Of a stretch of 64,000 nt of DNA, positions 15,796 through 32,691 are shown piece after piece. The first letter of the stretch is position 1; every line of letters begins with the position of its first letter. Origin of the DNA: Armatimonadota bacterium (GTDB taxonomy: Bacteria; Armatimonadota; HRBIN16); NCBI GenBank assembly GCA_026003175.1, contig BPGT01000001.1, positions 310,001 to 374,000 of the forward strand. The letters are read 5' to 3'. Under the pieces are notes generated by a model that ran no database searches, had not been told where the DNA came from, and saw nothing but the letters and a program-made list of their open reading frames with translations. The position numbers and the translations under genes were made by a program.

Positions 15796-16960
15796 GTTCG
15801 AGAGATGGCGGATTATCCTGTGTGCAACGTAGTCTTCTCACTTCCTGCGCAATCACCTCCGCCGCGAGGTCTATCTCCTCTGGCGTGTTGCCCCTGCCCA
15901 CGCTCAGGCGGATGGTGCTCATCGCCCGCTCTTCACTCATGCCTAGCGCCAGCAGCACATGCGAGGGTTCGATAGAACCTGCGCTGCACGCTGCTCCTGC
16001 CGAAGCGGCGATCCCCCGCCGGTCTAATGCAATCAGCAGACTCTCCGCCGAGACGCCCTCCAAAGTGACGCTGAGGATGCCGGGATGGCAATGTTGAGGA
16101 TGTCCGTTGACCCGTATGTCGGGGATCCGCTCCTGCAGGAGCGTGCGGAGCCGCTCGCGCAGTTGCCATATCCGCTCGCTAGCGGAGAGATAACGGGTCT
16201 GACTCAGCTCCACCGCCTTCGCGAAACCGGCGATGGCAGGCACGTTTTCCGTACCGGCTCGCATCTCGCGCTCCTGCGCTCCCCCCACCAGCAACGGCGC
16301 AATCTTCACCCCGCCGCGCAGATACAGCGCACCCGCGCCTTTCGGTCCATATAGCTTGTGCGCCGACACCGACAGCATATCCACCCCCAGGTCGTCCACC
16401 TTGAGGTCTATCAACCCGAAGGTCTGCACCGCATCACAGTGGAACCACACACCTCGCTCCCGGCACAACGCGCCGATCTCGCGCACAGGTTGCAACGTGC
16501 CGACTTCGTTGTTGGCGTGCATGACGCTCACCAGCCACGTATCCTCGCGGATAGCACGGCGCACGTCGTCGGGGTCTACCATGCCGTAGTGGTCTACAGG
16601 CAAATACGTGACATCCCACCCCTCCTGCTGCAGACGCTGGCAGGCGTGTAACACCGCGTGATGTTCTATCGCGGTGGTGACGATATGCCTTTTATGGAGA
16701 GGAGCCACTCGCGCCGCGCCGAATATCGCCATGTTGTCCGATTCGGTTCCACTGGAGGTGAAGAGTACCTCCGCATCGAGGCAACCCAGCGCGTGCGCGA
16801 CGGTCACCCGCGCCTCGTCTAGCAGGTCGCGAGCCTTCCTGCCGAACAGGTGCAGGCTGGATGGGTTGCCCCAGCACTCCTCCATCGCTTGCGCGACTGT
16901 CTCGCGCACCTCGGGAGCGATAGGCGTGGTCGCCGCATGGTCCAGGTAAACGCTACGCAT
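15770..16960 (-). CDS. Cysteine desulfurase, NifS/IscS type
   Basis: 396 residues from the ATG at 16960 (MRSVYLDHAATTPIAPEV); a longer frame upstream has no family similarity. Fold-type I PLP enzyme: Lys in LSVSAHKLYGPKGAGALYL, His in TTAIEHHAVLHAC, and the catalytic loop Cys in AASAGAACSAGSIEPSHV. It removes sulfur from cysteine for iron-sulfur clusters or thio-modifications; no isc/suf partner is adjacent. Oddity: the last residues (TQDNPPSLEPLPVVGSR) are read from the opposite strand across and next to the RHS remnant, so the native C-terminus seems to have been replaced by recombination. Confidence 0.9.
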   Translation of the reverse strand: MRSVYLDHAATTPIAPEVRETVAQAMEECWGNPSSLHLFGRKARDLLDEARVTVAHALGCLDAEVLFTSSGTESDNMAIFGAARVAPLHKRHIVTTAIEHHAVLHACQRLQQEGWDVTYLPVDHYGMVDPDDVRRAIREDTWLVSVMHANNEVGTLQPVREIGALCRERGVWFHCDAVQTFGLIDLKVDDLGVDMLSVSAHKLYGPKGAGALYLRGGVKIAPLLVGGAQEREMRAGTENVPAIAGFAKAVELSQTRYLSASERIWQLRERLRTLLQERIPDIRVNGHPQHCHPGILSVTLEGVSAESLLIALDRRGIAASAGAACSAGSIEPSHVLLALGMSEERAMSTIRLSVGRGNTPEEIDLAAEVIAQEVRRLRCTQDNPPSLEPLPVVGSR

Positions 16961-25682: not shown

Positions 25683-25775
25683 GTGGATGCCGACGTGGTG
25701 AAATTGGTAAACACGCTAGGTTCAGGGTCTAGTGCCCGAACGGGCTTGGGGGTTCGAGTCCCCCCGTCGGCACCA
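25683..25775 (+). repeat. Left attachment-site repeat (attL)
   Basis: 93 bases, from GTGGAT just before the tRNA to its CCA end, identical to 32599-32691. Sequence similarity stops at both borders. The strand-exchange point lies somewhere within the repeat. Confidence 0.85.
25689..25775 (+). tRNA. tRNA-Leu (CAG), left copy
   Basis: 87 bases with encoded CCA. Acceptor GCCGACG/CGTCGGC, anticodon loop TTCAGGG with anticodon CAG, and the long variable arm (TGCCCGAACGGGC) of class II tRNAs. This copy retains the host promoter and is the one most likely expressed. Confidence 0.95.
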
Positions 25776-25777
25776 CT

Positions 25778-25827
25778 ACAACATCTTGTGTTCCGACACC
25801 GAACGCAACACAACATCTTGTGTTCCG
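25778..25827. promoter_or_regulatory. Candidate integrase arm-type sites, left end
   Basis: Two direct copies of ACAACATCTTGTGTTCCG, at 25778-25795 and 25810-25827, start three bases past the tRNA. Related copies occur at the right end (32514-32526 and, reversed, 32546-32562). Short repeats at both ends of an element, outside the core site, are what tyrosine integrases bind with their N-terminal domains. Confidence 0.65.
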
Positions 25828-25884
25828 TCACGTGGTGCTGTTTTGACAAGTTTCGGATGTCTAGTGTGCTACAACAGCGGGGGC

Positions 25885-25913
25885 TTGACAGCGGTAGAGA
25901 AAAGCGGTAAGAT
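25885..25913 (+). promoter_or_regulatory. Sigma-70 promoter of the predicted island RNA
   Basis: TTGACA at 25885-25890, 17-base spacer, TAAGAT at 25908-25913. It points into a short stretch with two hairpins and away from any protein gene on this strand. Confidence 0.6.
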
Positions 25914-25919
25914 GTTACC

Positions 25920-25983
25920 GCGTTCAGCACCCGCGCTGCTGGACGCACCGCCAGCTGGAGACACCACTCCAAGCTGGCATTTT
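25920..25983 (+). ncRNA. Predicted 64-base structured RNA of the island
   Basis: Between the promoter at 25885 and a terminator-like hairpin. Hairpin 1 (25920-25946) pairs GCGTTCAGCA with TGCTGGACGC; hairpin 2 (25950-25978) pairs GCCAGCTGGAG with CTCCAAGCTGGC (one bulge) and is followed by ATTTT. No open frame. The rest of 25984-26126 is low-complexity CCACACC-rich DNA with nothing I can name. The RNA could regulate the island or a helper phage; that is inference. Confidence 0.45.
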
Positions 25984-26126
25984 CGTTTGCGCGGTGCACC
26001 CCACCGCACCCCACCAAACCACACCACACCGAACCGAACGCGCGTCCGTCGTCTTCGTGTCGGTGCAACTGGTGTCGTACACCGCGCACACTCATCATAG
26101 CACGGCGTGCCAGATGTGTCAAGCGG

Positions 26127-26909
26127 TTATTCTTCGAGTTCGATCAATTTTAGCGCGCCCTTCCGTCCGTCGTACTCCACGTGTCTGCCCAAGCGTGCCA
26201 GCACGTGACGTAACGGCGTGCAGATGTATTCCACGCCGTAAATGACGTGCTTCTGCGTCGGCACTTCGCCGAAGTCGCCCACCAGTCGCGCCAGCTGCCC
26301 ACGTGGTAGCCACAAGTCGCCACCGTCCAGCTTGGCTACCAGACGCGCGCCGGAGACGCACACAAAGCAATAACTCGGCGGTTCTTCGTGGTCACATTCC
26401 GGCAACGGCGCGTTGGCGACTGCTGCACGCAGTGCGTCGCCCCACCCAACCAGGTCGTTCGTGTCTTCCACCTCACTGTGCACCAGCACGTCGCGAACGT
26501 CCAGACGGTAACGCGAACACAGCAAGCGACACAGCGTCACCAGACTGTCCCACTGCCGTTCGTTCGGTGCACCGCCAAGCACCAGCACACCGGCACTGCC
26601 GATGTTGTGTGCCAGAGTGTGCCGCGCGTAGCCACGTCCACGCTGTGGTGCTGCGCTGTCAGCCAGAGAGAACAATCCACGCGCCACCGCGCCGGACTTG
26701 GCTATGATGAAGTGGTAACACGGCAGCAAGTCGTCAAGCGGTTCAACGGCGTCCGTGCTGTGCACCACCACGCGACGGACGGCACACGGGGGGAACCAGT
26801 CGGGGGGCAAAAAAAGTTCCCCCACCGTTGCCGGTTCTCGACCGCTACCGGCGGTGGGGGTATGGACTGTGGTCATGCAAGAACGAACGAGGTCATGGTG
26901 ACTGCACAC
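26127..26909 (-). CDS. N-acetylmuramoyl-L-alanine amidase-like (endolysin type)
   Basis: About 260 residues. The middle is an Amidase_2/PGRP-type zinc domain: RRVVVHSTDAV (first His), CYHFIIAKSGAVARGL, LAHNIGSAGVLVLGG and RDVLVHSEVEDT (second His with a following Asp). The C-terminal part (LWLPRGQLARLVGDFGEV, TPLRHVLARLGRHVEYDG) resembles a copper-amine-oxidase-N/stalk-like domain, possibly a wall-binding part. Cuts peptidoglycan cross-bridges, for lysis or entry. No signal peptide, so release would need a holin or lysis of the cell. Start uncertain: GTG at 26909 overlaps the upstream gene; an ATG at 26876 lacks a ribosome site. Confidence 0.75.
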   Translation of the reverse strand: MCSHHDLVRSCMTTVHTPTAGSGREPATVGELFLPPDWFPPCAVRRVVVHSTDAVEPLDDLLPCYHFIIAKSGAVARGLFSLADSAAPQRGRGYARHTLAHNIGSAGVLVLGGAPNERQWDSLVTLCRLLCSRYRLDVRDVLVHSEVEDTNDLVGWGDALRAAVANAPLPECDHEEPPSYCFVCVSGARLVAKLDGGDLWLPRGQLARLVGDFGEVPTQKHVIYGVEYICTPLRHVLARLGRHVEYDGRKGALKLIELEE

Positions 26910-27252
26910 GTTTGATTGCTTCCTGCAGGGCGGTCAGAATCTCCCGACTGGCGTCATGTTCCACGCGAACGTTGTCTCGGAACTTCTCCGGTCTTCGTGC
27001 TTTCAGCATGAACATCAACAGCGTGTCGCTACCCGCCAACGCACGGCGAACCGCTTCGTCTTCTAAAGCGTCCGTGCCACTCTCCCAAGCATCTGCCCAC
27101 TGCGCAGCAAAACGTTCGCTTCTCGCGCGACACCGGTAAGCGTGCTGTCGGCTAATGCCAGCAATCTTGCACGCAGCAGTCACGCTGCACCCCCGCGCCA
27201 GTGCCAGCAGGAACGGCGTCTGCCAGTCACGTCTCTTTTTTATGGGTGTCAC
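26893..27252 (-). CDS. Terminase small subunit-like HTH protein
   Basis: 119 residues. An N-terminal helix-turn-helix (FLLALARGCSVTAACKIAGI then SRQHAYRCRARSERFAAQW) is followed by the pattern ALEDEAVRRALAGSDTLLMF and MLKARRPEKFRDNV, which is common in phage proteins annotated as small terminase subunits. Such proteins recognise the packaging site. No large terminase is present in the element, as in phage satellites that redirect a helper's packaging machine. It could instead be another phage DNA-binding protein. Stop overlaps the amidase start. Confidence 0.65.
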   Translation of the reverse strand: MTPIKKRRDWQTPFLLALARGCSVTAACKIAGISRQHAYRCRARSERFAAQWADAWESGTDALEDEAVRRALAGSDTLLMFMLKARRPEKFRDNVRVEHDASREILTALQEAIKRVQSP

Positions 27253-27263
27253 TTTTTGTCACC

Positions 27264-27755
27264 TCAGCGGAACACCGGCTGAACCGGTGACGCCGGTGCT
27301 GGCTCTTCAGCCGGTGGCAGCCGGTGCAACCACGTTTCGGCGTCTTCGGGGCGGTTCACCCGCGACGGGTCTAACGCGCTTAAACTGCGTGCTTCGTTCG
27401 CGTAAGTTTTCAACGCAGCAAGCCGGTGTTCGTGCCCACGACGCGCACGCAGCAACCGGTCAACGCGCTGTTGGAGTTCGCGCAGCTGTTCCAAAAGCGG
27501 TTGCAGTTCGGCGTCCAGCTGCTGGATGTGCTGTTCTTCTTCAGCAGCAAGTTTGTTGTAGAAGTCCGCGCCAGCACCGGCAGCTTCCACAATCACGCGG
27601 TGCGCTTCGTGGGGCAAAGAGTGACGCTTCGTGATTGTCTGCAGCACGCGCTGTGGGTCACCCGAAGCCATACTCTCGTGTTCATTCGCCAGCAGTTCGC
27701 GCCACTCGGCAATCAGCCGGTGCACCCGTTCCAAAGCTTCCTGGTAGCCGTTCAT
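27264..27755 (-). CDS. Coiled-coil protein of the island, unknown role
   Basis: 163 residues, mostly alpha-helical coiled coil (HIQQLDAELQPLLEQLREL, QQRVDRLLRARRGHEHRLAA) with a proline/alanine-rich tail (PPAEEPAPASPVQPVF). It overlaps the preceding gene by four bases, so it is translated as part of the replication-to-terminase operon. I do not recognise the family. A scaffold, capsid-size or helper-interference role would be guesswork. Confidence 0.6.
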   Translation of the reverse strand: MNGYQEALERVHRLIAEWRELLANEHESMASGDPQRVLQTITKRHSLPHEAHRVIVEAAGAGADFYNKLAAEEEQHIQQLDAELQPLLEQLRELQQRVDRLLRARRGHEHRLAALKTYANEARSLSALDPSRVNRPEDAETWLHRLPPAEEPAPASPVQPVFR

Positions 27756-28018
27756 AGCGTCACCCCCGTCGGCAGTGGCACGGACACGCCCGAACGGGCA
27801 AGCTGCTGGAGTGCCGACTGGAAGCGTCGGCGAAGCTCTGCCAACCGCACTTGCGCGAACGGGTCGGGGTCTGTGCCCATCTGCTGCAGTTCGCGTTCAA
27901 TAGACAAAATCAGTTCGCGCACGTCGTTCAGCGCGTTGAATCTTTCAGTTTCGCTGAAAGACGGCTCAAAGCGACTTTGCTGCAGTTCCAAAATCGCGAT
28001 TTTGGCTTGAATGTCCAT
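27752..28018 (-). CDS. Small helical protein of the island
   Basis: 88 residues from the ATG at 28018 (MDIQAKIAILELQQSRFEPS), with AGGAGG ten bases upstream. Helical, acidic and Gln-rich; FNALNDVRELILSIERELQQ is a likely amphipathic helix. Overlaps the next gene. Family not recognised. Confidence 0.6.
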   Translation of the reverse strand: MDIQAKIAILELQQSRFEPSFSETERFNALNDVRELILSIERELQQMGTDPDPFAQVRLAELRRRFQSALQQLARSGVSVPLPTGVTL

Positions 28019-28064
28019 AACCGATTTACCTCCTGGCTTTCTGTTTTTAGTGTACGACTTTGGG

Positions 28065-28274
28065 CTAAGTTTTGTCAACATCGGTTGGCGCGGTGGGCTT
28101 TTCGCACAACGCTTGAATCTCCCAAAGCCGGTCGTACAATTCGGCAGCTTCCGGCGCCGTCAACTGCCCACGCGCCCGCGCACGCGCCAGCAGATTCTCC
28201 ACCCGCGCCAGCAGCACGCGCGTCTCATGACGCCTTCCATCGGCATCGTTTGCAGTAAAATGTTTGTCACCCAT
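28065..28274 (-). CDS. Small Arg/Ala-rich protein of the island
   Basis: 69 residues from the ATG at 28274 (MGDKHFTANDADGRRHETRV), GGAGG six bases upstream. The start overlaps the stop of the primase-helicase gene. The middle (LLARVENLLARARARGQL) is a basic helix, followed by TAPEAAELYDRLWEIQALCE. Possibly nucleic-acid binding; family not recognised. Confidence 0.55.
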   Translation of the reverse strand: MGDKHFTANDADGRRHETRVLLARVENLLARARARGQLTAPEAAELYDRLWEIQALCEKPTAPTDVDKT

Positions 28275-30696
28275 CCGGCACCTCCAACAAGCGAACCGTC
28301 GCACACTGGACACATTGCCAGTGCACCATGCCGTTGCTTAGCCGGTACGGACGGTGGACGGTTGTTGTCTGGCACACACCGCACCAGCCACGAACAGGGT
28401 AGCCGTCTTGCGGAGTAACAGAAGTAACAGAAGTAACAGTATTTTCAAACCGATCTCCACTTGTTTCATATAGGGTTTCAGAAATCGTTACTTCTGTTAC
28501 TTCTGTTACCGGCGGGTCGTTTTTCCAACAGATGCCAATCCACGCCCACCACTTGCGTTCTCCTTTTTGCGCTTCTTCGTACCCAAGTTCGCGCATTCGC
28601 TGGTTCACGCGCCGTGTCTGGTACTGGTTCATTCCGCGTGCTTGTAGCCACTCGTTCAGCCGGTCATTGAACTCATACTTGAACACGTAATCATCCGTCC
28701 GGAATGTCCTGTCGCAGTGTTCGGCAATGAACGTCTGAAGCGGGTCGGACAGTTCCTCATACATCCGGCGCTTCTCAGCAACCGACACGTCGCCGGTCAT
28801 CTGGAACCCATTTTCCAACAGACGCTGAAGCACCGCCACCGCTTGTGTGACACACCAGGCGAACTCTCGCGCTTTCACGTCCGGTGGCAGCAAGTCCAGT
28901 TCCGTCTCAATTCGCGGGTCTTCGGCGAACTGGTGTTCAAACCGCACGATGAAGGCACGTCTGTAAAAAGCGTCTGTCCGGTCGTGTGTCAGCGGTAGCG
29001 CGTTGCCGGTAAAGAGTAGCTTCGCATGGTTCCGGAATGTGACCGGTTCGCGGTACTTTCGGTCGGCAGTCAAAAGGTCACCGCCGGTCAAACTCTTCAG
29101 CGTGTCCGTCTGTGCCAGGTCGTCATAGCGAAGTTCGCCAGAAAACGCAAGCAGCTTCCGATGCAACTGCGCGACGGCAAACCGGTTCCCGCCTAAATCA
29201 TGAAGCGTCACGTTCGCCACGTTCTCCGTGCCTAACGCCGTCATTAGCATTTTCATTAAGTACGACTTGCCCGCACTCGCTTTGCCAATCCAGAAGAACG
29301 CGCGTTGCAGGGGGTAGCCGCGCCACAGGCAATAAGCCAGGAACTCCCAGAAGTGTGTCCGAATCGCTTCGGGGAACGCGCCAAGACGCACTGCCAGCAA
29401 CTCGCTGTGCGCGTCGGGGTCATACCGCCAGGGCAGTTTACTGGTGAAGCCGTCTTCGGGCGTGTAGCCTCGCAGTTCGCCGGTGTGTAAGTCAAACACA
29501 CCGTTGGCGAAGGGTATGAGTGTCGGCGGTGGCGTCGGCAACGGCGATTCATGCCAGCACAACTCGCGGATGTCCGCAATGACTTCGCGAACACAGGTCT
29601 CTTTCTTCCACTCTTCCGGCAGAACGCCATCTTCGCGGAGTAAGTTTGCCAAGAACGCTTCAGCGTCTTCGCGCCACACACCGGCTTGTTGGTCGTACCG
29701 GTAGAAATCGCCAGTGCGCAGGTCGCCACACGAGTAGAACCGGTGCAGGTGCAGAATCTTCTCTGTGAACCGGCGTGGCACAAACTTCGTCATCACGCGC
29801 ACAGCGTCCGTGTGTTCGTGGTCGTGCCCGTTGCGCTGGTGCGGTTCGTAAAACGTCGTCTTGTGCGCAAGCGCAGCTTCTATTGTGCGTCGCCTGTAGT
29901 CCCTGCGTTGCCACTTCTCGCGCTGTCCACGTGGTGATGAACTGAACAACCGTTCCGCACGCGCCACGTCGCCAGCAGTCCAAAACAGCAACATACTCAT
30001 CAACGCGCAGTCCGCTTCCGACGCCGACGGGTAGCCAGTGTCGTCGCCCTCCCACAACCGTTTGAACTTCTCGCCGTTCGCGGCGTGCATGGCTTTCGCC
30101 AGCAGTTCGCTGTCGGTCAAGTCCGTTGCTGGTGCTGGTGCTGGTGCGGGCTTTTCGTTCTCATCACCGAACACCATGCGGTGAACACGTTCGATCTCCG
30201 CTTGCCGAAACTCAATCGTCTGTGGCGTGCCCGCCATGTGTCTGCCCGTGACGGTCACAAAGCGCGAGTCGCAGTACATCTCCAAGCTTCCGCGCCGTCT
30301 GCGTCCGTCTGGCAGCTTGCCGTAGCATAGCACGCGCAATCCGCGTCCACTTGGCGTGACTTCCGTGTAGCTGTCCAGTATGCGCACCAGTTCCCACACG
30401 TCGGGGGCACATGTGCCGTCTTCTCGCAAGCACTGGTCGAAGTCAAACGCTGTGATGCCCACTTCTGGCGTCAACACGAACCCAACGCCGTCACAGCGCG
30501 TGCTGGCTTTCAGTGCCGTCCGAAAGTCCGCCCACGTGTTCGGGTCAGACACACTCGCGTTCCGTTCCGGCGCGTGGGGGCACTTGGGCACTTTCGTCTG
30601 CTTGCCCTCGCGTGTCTCATACCGCCACACAACCCAGTTCGGGACGCGCTTCAGCGCGTCTGGAATGCTGTGCGGATTAACATCACCGGTCTTCAT
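28267..30696 (-). CDS. Primase-polymerase/SF3 helicase replication protein
   Basis: 809 residues from the ATG at 30696 (MKTGDVNPHSIPDALKRVPN) behind AGGGGG. N-terminal archaeo-eukaryotic-primase-like domain: PNWVVWRYETREGKQTKVPK, GVGFVLTPEVGITAFDFDQC (DxD metal motif), YTEVTPSGRGLRVLCYG. The central/C-terminal part is a D5/P4-like superfamily 3 helicase: Walker A in WIGKASAGKSYLMK, KSLTGGDLLTADRKYREPV, sensor AKLLFTGNALP. The last 60 residues have a zinc-ribbon (GWCGVCQTT, WQCVQCATV). The protein would prime and unwind the element at its own origin. Iteron-like repeats lie within the codons before the zinc ribbon. Confidence 0.88.
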   Translation of the reverse strand: MKTGDVNPHSIPDALKRVPNWVVWRYETREGKQTKVPKCPHAPERNASVSDPNTWADFRTALKASTRCDGVGFVLTPEVGITAFDFDQCLREDGTCAPDVWELVRILDSYTEVTPSGRGLRVLCYGKLPDGRRRRGSLEMYCDSRFVTVTGRHMAGTPQTIEFRQAEIERVHRMVFGDENEKPAPAPAPATDLTDSELLAKAMHAANGEKFKRLWEGDDTGYPSASEADCALMSMLLFWTAGDVARAERLFSSSPRGQREKWQRRDYRRRTIEAALAHKTTFYEPHQRNGHDHEHTDAVRVMTKFVPRRFTEKILHLHRFYSCGDLRTGDFYRYDQQAGVWREDAEAFLANLLREDGVLPEEWKKETCVREVIADIRELCWHESPLPTPPPTLIPFANGVFDLHTGELRGYTPEDGFTSKLPWRYDPDAHSELLAVRLGAFPEAIRTHFWEFLAYCLWRGYPLQRAFFWIGKASAGKSYLMKMLMTALGTENVANVTLHDLGGNRFAVAQLHRKLLAFSGELRYDDLAQTDTLKSLTGGDLLTADRKYREPVTFRNHAKLLFTGNALPLTHDRTDAFYRRAFIVRFEHQFAEDPRIETELDLLPPDVKAREFAWCVTQAVAVLQRLLENGFQMTGDVSVAEKRRMYEELSDPLQTFIAEHCDRTFRTDDYVFKYEFNDRLNEWLQARGMNQYQTRRVNQRMRELGYEEAQKGERKWWAWIGICWKNDPPVTEVTEVTISETLYETSGDRFENTVTSVTSVTPQDGYPVRGWCGVCQTTTVHRPYRLSNGMVHWQCVQCATVRLLEVPDG
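28414..28509. repeat. Iteron-like inverted repeat array, candidate origin
   Basis: Three 9-base direct repeats of AGTAACAGA (28414-28440) face the same unit in reverse orientation (28487-28509), separated by 46 bases of lower GC. It lies inside the 3' part of the primase-helicase gene, coding for the repeated VTEVTEVT and VTSVTSVT. Initiator-binding iterons flanking an AT-richer centre are typical of replication origins of such elements. Confidence 0.55.
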
Positions 30697-30887
30697 GCCC
30701 GTCGCCCCCTGCTGCGCAACCACGCTTCGCGCTGTTCGGCATAGCGCATCACGTCGTCGTGCCGGTATAGCCAACCGGCTTTGACGCGCACGGCGCGTAA
30801 CTTGCCACACAGCCGAAGCTGTCTCACTCGTTCGTACGACACACCCAGTGTCGACGCCACGTCGCCAGCACTTAGCAGTCTTTTCAC
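30693..30887 (-). CDS. Excisionase/AlpA-like HTH protein
   Basis: 64 residues, MerR-like winged helix-turn-helix of the excisionase type: LLSAGDVASTLGVSYERVRQ, then GWLYRHDDVMRYAEQREAW. Small proteins of this kind bind DNA as recombination directionality factors or as activators in satellites. The stop overlaps the start of the primase-helicase by four bases, so the two are coupled, and it is the first gene of the minus-strand operon. Confidence 0.75.
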   Translation of the reverse strand: MKRLLSAGDVASTLGVSYERVRQLRLCGKLRAVRVKAGWLYRHDDVMRYAEQREAWLRSRGRRA

Positions 30888-30900
30888 GCCATCTCACCTC

Positions 30901-30929
30901 TTGCAAGGTTCTCAGCCACATGTTACAAT
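30901..30929 (+). promoter_or_regulatory. Promoter of the divergent island gene
   Basis: TTGCAA, 17-base spacer, TACAAT, 46 bases before the start of the 201-residue gene. I could not find an equally good promoter for the excisionase operon in the same 87-base gap. Confidence 0.55.
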
Positions 30930-30974
30930 GAAACAGAACAAACTCTACACTTCTCCAAAAATGGCAGTCATTGT

Positions 30975-31580
30975 ATGAAAAATTACATGTCTGCGGAACA
31001 CCGGTTTGTGCGCTGTGTCAGCGCAATTGAGAAACTGATTACCAGCAGTGATGTGCCGACGCGCGAAGAACTGTATGACGCCGTCCGTGCCTACGTGGAA
31101 CGGGTCTTCAGCCATCTTTCTTCGGATGCGCAGATGCGCTTTTTGGCGCGCTTTGAAACGTTGGGGGCTGAAGCTGCCGAGTATGCGCTCGCCGAGATGT
31201 GTCGCGTTGCACCGTCGGCACAACTTGCCGTCGGCGAGTATTGTTTCCGTGCTTACTTCATCAGTGGTGGCGAACCGGAACAGCTGGACGCGCCACAGAT
31301 TGCGACACATGAAATTTGTGTCTGCTATTTAACGCTTGACCGTCCAACCGTCCGCAAGGCGGTGACAGCTGCGCGTCGGTACTGTGTCTGTTCCGAACGG
31401 ACGTTCTGGCGCGAGATTCGGCGAATCCGCCAAGCGGTGACCGCCAAACAACTCAAGGAATATGAAAGAACACTGGACTTGTTCGACGGGGTTTTTCTGC
31501 CCGATGGCAGTGGCGGTTCGTTTCTGTTGACCGGCGCGATTGTGCGGTTTTTGCTGCTGCTGGGGGCAGGCGCGTCGTGA
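30975..31580 (+). CDS. Hypothetical island protein, 201 residues
   Basis: Begins MKNYMSAEHRFVRCVSAIEK. Soluble, helical; ends in a hydrophobic stretch (LLTGAIVRFLLLLGAGAS). A segment ERTFWREIRRIRQAVTAKQL, preceded by TLDRPTVRKAVTAARRYCVC, could be a helix-turn-helix. It is the only plus-strand protein gene in the island and diverges from the excisionase operon, the usual place for a master regulator. Function inferred from position only. No ribosome site of note before the ATG. A perfect 14-base-pair hairpin covers its stop codon. Confidence 0.6.
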   Translation: MKNYMSAEHRFVRCVSAIEKLITSSDVPTREELYDAVRAYVERVFSHLSSDAQMRFLARFETLGAEAAEYALAEMCRVAPSAQLAVGEYCFRAYFISGGEPEQLDAPQIATHEICVCYLTLDRPTVRKAVTAARRYCVCSERTFWREIRRIRQAVTAKQLKEYERTLDLFDGVFLPDGSGGSFLLTGAIVRFLLLLGAGAS

Positions 31581-31592
31581 CGCGCCTGCCCC
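31563..31592. terminator. Strong hairpin between convergent island genes
   Basis: GGGGCAGGCGCGTC and GACGCGCCTGCCCC pair perfectly with a two-base gap. It covers the stop codon of the 201-residue gene and lies 10 bases from the integrase stop. There is no U-tract, so it may block transcripts from both sides less sharply than a standard terminator. Confidence 0.55.
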
Positions 31593-31601
31593 GTGTTGGT
31601 T

Positions 31602-32516
31602 TCAACGCTTTTTCAGCAAATTTACCGGACTGTGCTGCTGGTGCGCCGTCTTCAAGTCGTCTTCCAGCAGTGTCAAATAAACTTGCGTCGTCTTCAAGTC
31701 GCTGTGTCCCATGAGTAACCGAAGATGTTCCAAACTCACGCCGTTGCGCAAACTCCACGTGGCGAATGCGCGGCGCAGCATGTGCGGTGACAGCTTCACA
31801 CCAGCACGCTTGCCGATGTTTTCAACCGCTTGCTTCAGTCCACCAAGCGTCAGCGTTTTGCTTTTGTGTCGGCACCACCACAAAGGCGCGTCTGCTGGCA
31901 GATTGCCCAGCAGCTTCACATAACGCACCAGTGCCAGTCGCGTCTCGCCACTGAGAAACACATAGCGGAACCGTCCGCCTTTGCCACGAACAGCAAACGT
32001 CTCCTGCACCACGTCGCCCACGCGCAACTGGTGACACTCGTGGATGCGCAGTCCCGTGTCCAGCAACGTCAGCAGCAGGGCACGGTCACGCACACGTACG
32101 AAGTCTTTGCCATCACACGCGCCCAGCAGAGTCTCTATTTCTTCGGGCGTCGGCACGTGCTTGATTACACGTTCGCGCTTCGGTGCGTCCACGTACGCAC
32201 ACGGGTTGCTTTCTATGAGATTCTGCTTCACCGCCCACGCAAACAGCGCGTTCAGTGTGCGGTAGTTTCCTGCGATTGTCTGTGGCGAACGTCCAGCACG
32301 GCGTCGGGCAATCAAGTACTGGCGAACGGTGTCCGGCGTGACTTCGGTGATGGGAATGTTGCCCACTTCGCGAATGAACGTGGTCACAATGAACCGGTAG
32401 ACGGTGATGGTGTTGGTGCTACAACCGCGTGCTTCCAGATGCGACAGCCACAGTTCCACCACGTTGTACAGATTCAACGGGTTTGTGTCAGCCATGCGCA
32501 GTCTAGTGGTTTTCAT
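31602..32516 (-). CDS. int: Tyrosine recombinase (integrase)
   Basis: 304 residues from the ATG at 32516, chosen because GGAGG lies eight bases upstream. N-terminal SAM-like core-binding domain (VELWLSHLEARGCSTNTITV) and the catalytic domain with Arg in LLDTGLRIHECHQLRVGDV, the His-x-x-Arg box in LSPHMLRRAFATWSLRNG, a second His in LLMGHSDLKTTQVYL, and Tyr in the same stretch (QVYL). Full catalytic set. Catalyses insertion at and excision from tRNA-Leu. The gene points away from the right attachment site, with repeated arm-type motifs overlapping its start. Confidence 0.93.
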   Translation of the reverse strand: MKTTRLRMADTNPLNLYNVVELWLSHLEARGCSTNTITVYRFIVTTFIREVGNIPITEVTPDTVRQYLIARRRAGRSPQTIAGNYRTLNALFAWAVKQNLIESNPCAYVDAPKRERVIKHVPTPEEIETLLGACDGKDFVRVRDRALLLTLLDTGLRIHECHQLRVGDVVQETFAVRGKGGRFRYVFLSGETRLALVRYVKLLGNLPADAPLWWCRHKSKTLTLGGLKQAVENIGKRAGVKLSPHMLRRAFATWSLRNGVSLEHLRLLMGHSDLKTTQVYLTLLEDDLKTAHQQHSPVNLLKKR

Positions 32517-32562
32517 CTTGTGTTCCTCCGTGTTTGTCCACGTTAGAACCACAAGATGTTGT
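32514..32562. promoter_or_regulatory. Candidate integrase arm-type sites, right end
   Basis: CATCTTGTGTTCC at 32514-32526 overlaps the integrase start, and ACCACAAGATGTTGT, the reverse of the left-end motif with one change, is at about 32549-32562. Binding here would also control integrase transcription. Confidence 0.55.
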
Positions 32563-32598
32563 TACACGCTTGCGGGTGTGCCACAATATGTTGTGTGA

Positions 32599-32691
32599 GT
32601 GGATGCCGACGTGGTGAAATTGGTAAACACGCTAGGTTCAGGGTCTAGTGCCCGAACGGGCTTGGGGGTTCGAGTCCCCCCGTCGGCACCA
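32599..32691 (+). repeat. Right attachment-site repeat (attR)
   Basis: 93 bases identical to 25683-25775. To its right the sequence continues ATTTTTATTG, a T-rich end that was probably the native terminator region of the host tRNA gene before insertion. Confidence 0.85.
32605..32691 (+). tRNA. tRNA-Leu (CAG), right copy
   Basis: Identical to the left copy over all 87 bases. The best upstream promoter match is weak (TTGTTA, 17 bases or so, CAATAT), so it may be silent or expressed only from the element. Confidence 0.95.

Follow-up and report, generated by a model that had tools for sequence, protein, structure and literature searches.

The 64-kb stretch of DNA analyzed here (the window; contig BPGT01000001.1, positions 310,001 to 374,000, of an Armatimonadota bacterium of the HRBIN16 lineage) contains an element, designated E1, that occupies a tRNA-Leu gene. 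Its ends are exact 93-nt direct repeats on the forward strand (25683-25775 and 32599-32691; start-to-start spacing of 6916), each with a complete tRNA-Leu(CAG) inside it according to ARAGORN, and the host promoter upstream of the left copy stays with that copy. In a sister genome (G003, L153), an uninterrupted tRNA-Leu site matches the joined E1 flanks over 177 nt across the junction (94%). As the chromosomal flank there directly follows the same tRNA-Leu, E1 is an insertion, and the roughly 7 kb between perfect tRNA-Leu repeats described in an earlier note on this DNA are borne out. Genome G007 carries another element, the 6.9-kb E14, at the same site, and G004 carries the 13.3-kb E16 there. 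The sequence ACAACATMTTGTG has four copies in the window (25778, 25810, 32550, and 32582), all just inside the E1 repeats and arranged as two mirrored pairs with 32-nt spacing within each. These pairs of ACAACATCTTGTG boxes (25778-25822, forward; 32550-32594, reverse), which the box search found at the element ends only, are probably integrase arm or accessory sites. Like phage-inducible chromosomal islands (PICIs), E1 encodes its own integrase and is inserted site-specifically at an attachment (att) site.

All E1 genes except one are encoded on the reverse strand, in the unidirectional order of Gram-negative PICIs. The tyrosine integrase gene (int; 31602-32552, reverse; phrog_1, 3e-53) has a probable start at 32516 behind a ribosome-binding site (RBS). 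Near it lies a gene for an excisionase or MerR-like helix-turn-helix (HTH) protein (30693-30887, reverse; HTH_17, 4e-8; phrog_66, 6e-8), corresponding to the AlpA/MerR-class regulator found near int in PICIs. The exception among the open reading frames (ORFs), orf201 (30975-31580, forward), is a candidate repressor by position, and a sequence scan placed a strong terminator-like hairpin (31563-31592, forward) between it and int. The primase-helicase gene (28267-30696, reverse) and orf82 (28065-28313, reverse; by homology 100% and 94% identical in the related elements E6 and E7) are followed by a promoter-like site from the promoter scan (28049-28078, reverse), ahead of orf109, orf163, terS, and the amidase gene. 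The probable true start of orf109 (27752-28018, reverse; 88 amino acids [aa]; homologues in E6, E7, and E10) is at 28018 behind an RBS. The conserved protein of orf163 (27264-27755, reverse; alignment A4) was modeled by AlphaFold2 with a predicted 93-residue helix (predicted local distance difference test score [pLDDT], 89.5); a fold search returned uninformative matches to the long helix only, and no relative was found in IMG/VR. We regard it as a candidate morphogenesis or scaffold-like factor.

Scans of the E1 ORFs with hidden Markov models (HMMs) gave no match to head, tail, portal, or large terminase (TerL) proteins; as in PICIs, TerL and virion genes are undetected, and the small terminase gene (terS), which is optional in PICIs, is present. 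Among the same ORFs there was no head protein match indicative of the capsid gene set of capsid-forming PICIs and no match to the psu, sid, and delta set of P4-like satellites. Relaxases, which characterize integrative and conjugative or integrative and mobilizable elements, were matched neither among the E1 ORFs nor among the window ORFs scanned, and PADLOC reported no convincing defense gene inside E1. The HMM matches confirm the gene content proposed earlier, namely, integrase, excisionase-like regulator, primase-helicase, small terminase, and amidase without virion genes.

The primase-helicase (phrog_1829, 9e-112) combines an archaeo-eukaryotic primase (AEP), a helix-bundle domain, and a D5/superfamily 3 helicase, and HMM matches were obtained to NrS-1 HBD, D5_N, and DUF5906. 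The best solved relative of its AEP-like N terminus is PDB entry 7ola (7e-39), which we take to be the primase-helicase of a Staphylococcus aureus pathogenicity island (SaPI); NrS-1-type primase entries also match. Given this relative, an AEP-type replicase is not the unusual trait that the earlier note had seen in it. The possible internal origin suspected there is real as a sequence feature: the iteron scan identified inverted iterons, GTAACAGAA and TTCTGTTAC, which enclose a G+C-poorer core of ~45 nt within the 3' end of the primase gene (28415-28509), and such a bipartite pattern arose in 0 of 50 shuffles in each element tested. The E1 iterons recur at the equivalent position in E4 and E6. 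In E5, E11, E13, and E14, the 3' part of the replicase gene contains iterons of other sequence, as does the middle of the gene in E16. In PICIs, the origin lies immediately downstream of the initiator gene and consists of an AT-rich region with a set of iterons on either side (PMC6092414). E1 likewise has an initiator gene and a predicted origin of this build, placed within the 3' end of the gene.

The terS product (26893-27252, reverse) matched small terminase family phrog_4044 (7e-21). Its AlphaFold2 model was of moderate confidence (pLDDT, 77), and the best PDB match of the model was TerS of phage Sf6 (3hef), with a nonsignificant E value of 0.07 and a probability of 1.0. IMG/VR contains viral relatives of this TerS (up to 58%) whose genes adjoin a large terminase gene in at least seven contigs; in one of these, portal and minor head genes follow. 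The adjacent gene (26127-26909, reverse) encodes an endolysin-like N-acetylmuramoyl-L-alanine amidase with a C-terminal domain (Amidase_2, 5e-6, above the Pfam cutoff). Residues H34, Y49, and H128 and acidic residues are kept in all six copies compared (alignment A7) and, by analogy with T7 lysozyme and AmpD, would be the zinc ligands and catalytic residues. Pairwise ratios of nonsynonymous to synonymous substitution rates (dN/dS) were 0.12 to 0.23 for TerS and 0.16 to 0.34 for the amidase; as these values are well below 1, both proteins are under purifying selection. Less constraint was seen for orf163 (up to 0.54), orf109, and the primase (0.46). Satellites have been said to have no cell-lysis mechanisms of their own (review, PMC11389934), a statement that is challenged by a selected and conserved amidase beside TerS. 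The satellite PLE (PICI-like element) is reported to affect lysis timing via another route (PMC7182436). Next to their amidase genes, E2, E3, E6, and E7, unlike E1, have several tandem, internally palindromic units of ~65 nt (GATTGCAAAAATTGCATCAGGTC...; L037:1660-1931, L046:7767-7980, L049:7106-7278, and L039:15922-16190).

Relatives of E1 were collected by searches with the integrase, primase, and TerS and then with a model of the RNA described below. At least 15 complete elements of the same short plan (6.0 to 8.4 kb, measured as bp between repeat starts; E2 counted once) were found, in addition to E16, all between tRNA repeats; the genomes concerned are four from the genus and two from another family in the same phylum. 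Five kinds of element occur in the window's genome (G000): E1 (tRNA-Leu; 6916 bp), E2 (tRNA-Lys and tRNA-Thr; 8355 bp), E3 (tRNA-Met; 7782 bp), E4 (tRNA-Gly; 6903 bp), and E5 (tRNA-Gly; 8237 bp). Genome G004 contains E6 (tRNA-Met; 6596 bp), E7 (tRNA-Thr; 7502 bp), E11 (tRNA-Gly; 7690 bp), E12 (tRNA-Arg; 6995 bp), E13 (tRNA-Arg; 6033 bp), and E16 (tRNA-Leu; 13254 bp), while E14 (tRNA-Leu; 6866 bp) belongs to G007 and E15 (tRNA-His; 7436 bp) to G002. The other family is represented by L170 (tRNA-Lys; 6979 bp) and L171 (tRNA-Thr; 7358 bp) in G219 and by L175 (tRNA-Ala; 7784 bp) in G231; TerS genes of these elements come from other TerS families (phrog_4102 and phrog_7344). The two E2 copies are 99.9% identical over 8.4 kb and differ mainly at their att sites, with right ends of the tRNA-Lys and tRNA-Thr types, respectively; assembly breaks leave one left end ambiguous. 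The presence of near-identical E2 in two tRNA genes of one genome indicates recent mobility. E7 and E11 have identical terS genes and 98% identical amidases but different integrase and replication genes, so modules have been exchanged between elements. In elements of the E4/E5 type, an amidase is absent and the HTH genes are only weakly TerS-like.

These relatives bear on the possibility that E1 is a decayed prophage that has lost its TerL, head, and tail genes. The int, primase, TerS, and amidase genes are indeed of phage type, a TerL-bearing element (E8) has int and primase homology to E1, and E3 is decaying, with frameshifts in its primase and amidase genes. However, the 15 complete elements, located in different tRNA genes, are alike in their short size and plan, near-identical E2 sits in two such genes, dN/dS of TerS and the amidase is well below 1, and the promoters, predicted origin, and perfect repeats of E1 are intact. 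The earlier note had held that longer close copies with TerL and capsid genes would speak for decay; the complete relatives are as short as E1, and no TerL or capsid gene was detected in any of them. HMM scans of G000 and G004 with a few broad TerL families gave no match inside the elements, and BLAST searches in which two TerLs of the genus plus a portal/capsid pair served as queries gave none in E12 to E16 or in the other-family elements. Decay is thus very improbable, and it was rejected on the basis of the shared short plan, E2 mobility, and selection on TerS and the amidase, in favor of the satellite that the earlier note had preferred.

Elements that differ in their genes share a conserved noncoding block close to the att end. 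In E1 it consists of a forward promoter-like site, P_F (TTGACA-17-TAAGAT; 25885-25913, forward; 17 of 17 genus copies), a two-hairpin structured RNA followed by a T-run, supported by fold and covariation (25918-25990, forward; match to model R1 at 25878-25995), and a convergent promoter-like site, P_R (TTGACA-17-TATGAT with an extended -10; 26094-26122, reverse; 16 of 17 genus copies), directed towards att and, in the circle, into int. P_F and P_R rank among the three best-scoring sigma-70-like sites of E1. The RNA folds at -35.9 kcal/mol (z, -5.0) and has no match in Rfam. All pairs form in an alignment of 8 sequences, and 99.2% of cells are paired in one of 17 sequences and 99.4% in one of 23 that includes the other family. 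In this last alignment, both partners have changed in 16 of the 21 pairs. The two larger alignments were fitted to the model and so lean towards it, slid controls being 22 to 51% paired. The covariation score of the 23 sequences was 0.519, compared with 0.141 in shuffles, the shuffle count not being a probability. G.U pairs are kept almost exclusively on the forward strand (20 G.U cells versus 1 A.C), which points to an RNA read on that strand. According to the coordinates, P_R of E2 and E7 faces int directly; in E1, E3 to E6, and E11 to E15 it does so across the closed att junction, and in E16 it faces the replicase. In the other family (RNA copies L170 to L175), both -35 boxes are GCAGGAWTC instead of TTGACA, a symmetric replacement. 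Two further RNA copies, L141:9816-9932 and L136:7385-7503, lie near tRNA-Val(CAC) with no complete element in the contig and represent remnants or contig breaks.

The occurrence of this block near the att end of nearly every element, whatever its gene content, and the inverted arms that flank it would also suit a packaging or recombination site made of cos- or pac-like DNA hairpins rather than a regulatory RNA. We consider such a site unlikely, as elements that differ in TerS family have the block in common, G.U pairs are nearly confined to the forward strand, the promoters to either side are conserved in spacing and -10 box in the genus copies, and the RNA was not found in the prophage loci searched. 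We propose instead that the two-hairpin RNA may be a brake on integrase expression. Satellites whose TerS and replication modules are unrelated were found with one RNA model, which could be used to survey for more.

Several observations weigh against the interpretation of E1 as a satellite. Searches of the window's genome for a resident helper prophage (PF03354, phrog_2, phrog_9, phrog_38, and the L107 capsid protein) found none, the earlier note having proposed to look for a resident prophage with a related small terminase. A same-genus prophage, L107 in G004, has TerL, Amidase_2, and a major head protein, but its TerS is of a different family (phrog_2538) from that of E1. The TerL-bearing E8 (L047, G004) is related to E1 in primase (50% over ~290 aa) and integrase (38%). 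The TerL searches covered few broad families, with HMMs applied to G000 and G004 and BLAST to the other genomes; E10, which has no RNA match, and E16, with the RNA mid-element, are exceptions to the RNA pattern, and the comparison of E1 with E6 gave a primase dN/dS of only 0.46. Finally, the interpretation rests on sequence anatomy, from which helper, excision, induction, and packaging are inferred. The E8 homology suggests a possible phage origin of E1-type elements, and the tRNA-Gly(TCC) sequence used by E8 is also used by E5 in another species. In a BLASTN search for a packaging site common with G004 prophages, only coding and tRNA similarity and one short weak match to the L110 locus were obtained. 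The only clear TerL in the window's genome is a lone gene at a housekeeping locus. Lone Terminase_6C homologues amid housekeeping genes and without other phage genes were observed in G000, G002, and G004 (L101:18231-19565, corresponding to G000:C6:140230-141564; L105:15275-16621; and L106:12002-13324), with related matches in G001 and G003, and are possibly domesticated.

The lack of a detected helper in the window's genome would also fit an integrative plasmid-like element spread by transformation or another vehicle, in which TerS would be a DNA-binding regulator and the amidase would serve another purpose. TerS proteins are HTH proteins, the E4/E5-type elements carry neither a clear TerS nor an amidase, and RNA-regulated iteron replicons are plasmid-like. 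However, the TerS matches are specific (phrog_4044 and the Sf6 fold, with viral relatives beside TerL), elements of the other family carry different TerS families, the amidase linked to TerS is endolysin-like, and the window ORFs scanned lack a detectable relaxase, which together make a plasmid-like element quite improbable. "PICI-like satellite" is the best reading of E1, in which the likeness is one of anatomy and PICI membership is not claimed. The probability that E1 is an intact, PICI-like phage satellite belonging to a family that lives in tRNA genes of this phylum is roughly 0.8.

Upon helper infection or induction, such a satellite would excise via int and the HTH/Xis protein at the mirrored ACAACATMTTGTG boxes and replicate from its own iterons with its own primase-helicase. 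TerS would recruit the large terminase of the helper, leading to packaging of satellite DNA in helper particles, while the amidase could help or retime lysis and orf163 and orf109 may act on helper capsids. P_R would drive int, in most elements only after circle closure, and P_F would make the two-hairpin RNA, antisense to the P_R transcript, as a brake on the int/replication operon. Whether the elements form a phylum-wide satellite class with its own RNA switch (int strong only in the excised circle, its level set by the convergent antisense RNA) and its own endolysin timing lysis is a tentative and somewhat doubtful extension of this scheme.

Other repeats were observed in related loci. An insertion sequence-like gene of ~990 bp is present in several copies, 99.8 to 99.9% identical, in one genome (L036:2084-3073, L038:4120-5109, L039:16894-17884, and L040:4482-5471). 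A ~190-bp repeat resembling miniature inverted-repeat transposable elements is scattered over the same genome at 98 to 100% identity (L038:3706-4111, L039:6973-7163 and 16701-16886, L040:4284-4476, L042:2322-2507, L043:5643-5831, and L045:15079-15263). The prepilin motif AILFPVFAQAREKAR, present in L046, suggests that the host belongs to Armatimonadota.

Tycheposons and virion-encapsidated integrative mobile elements (VEIMEs) are tRNA-targeted tyrosine-recombinase elements with replication genes, some of which are thought to be packaged in virions. Both are named in earlier work (PMC10803314, PMC11389934). They differ from the E1 family in their marine hosts, and the likeness is one of general description. 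The phage-inducible chromosomal minimalist islands (PICMIs) of Vibrionaceae resemble the E1 family in a very small excision and replication gene set without capsid genes; compared by description only, PICMIs adjoin fis, whereas the E1 family resides in tRNA genes with TerS and the amidase (PMC10803314). P4 and PLE, like E1, have noncoding RNAs, which in those satellites are complementary to leader transcripts (PMC7567579). In contrast, the E1 RNA extends over the int leader and is opposed by a convergent promoter, and no relation to the P4 or PLE RNAs was found in Rfam. The Pcirc promoter of ICEclc drives its integrase only after circularization. Pcirc lies, as P_R does, at the far element end, and it drives the integrase (PMC2892462); however, ICEclc is a conjugative element and is not known to have a hairpin RNA opposite Pcirc. 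The leader-complementary RNAs of P4 and PLE (PMC7567579) and Pcirc (PMC2892462) are precedents for the functions inferred here for the RNA and P_R.

Satellites, placed mainly in Firmicutes and Proteobacteria by the earlier note, are also known in Cyanobacteria and Actinobacteria (PMC11389934); the present elements extend them to Armatimonadota, for which a literature search turned up none. The closest likeness is to PICIs and SaPIs, which share with E1 int, an AlpA/MerR-class HTH protein, a fused primase-helicase, a core enclosed by two iteron sets as the origin (predicted in E1), and a late terS in the same direction, all without virion genes (PMC6092414), as well as the best solved relative of the primase, 7ola. 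In contrast to PICIs and SaPIs, the E1 family is smaller (6 to 8 kb), the predicted origin of E1 lies inside the replicase gene instead of after it, and the elements carry an endolysin-like amidase and a conserved two-hairpin RNA in a new host phylum.

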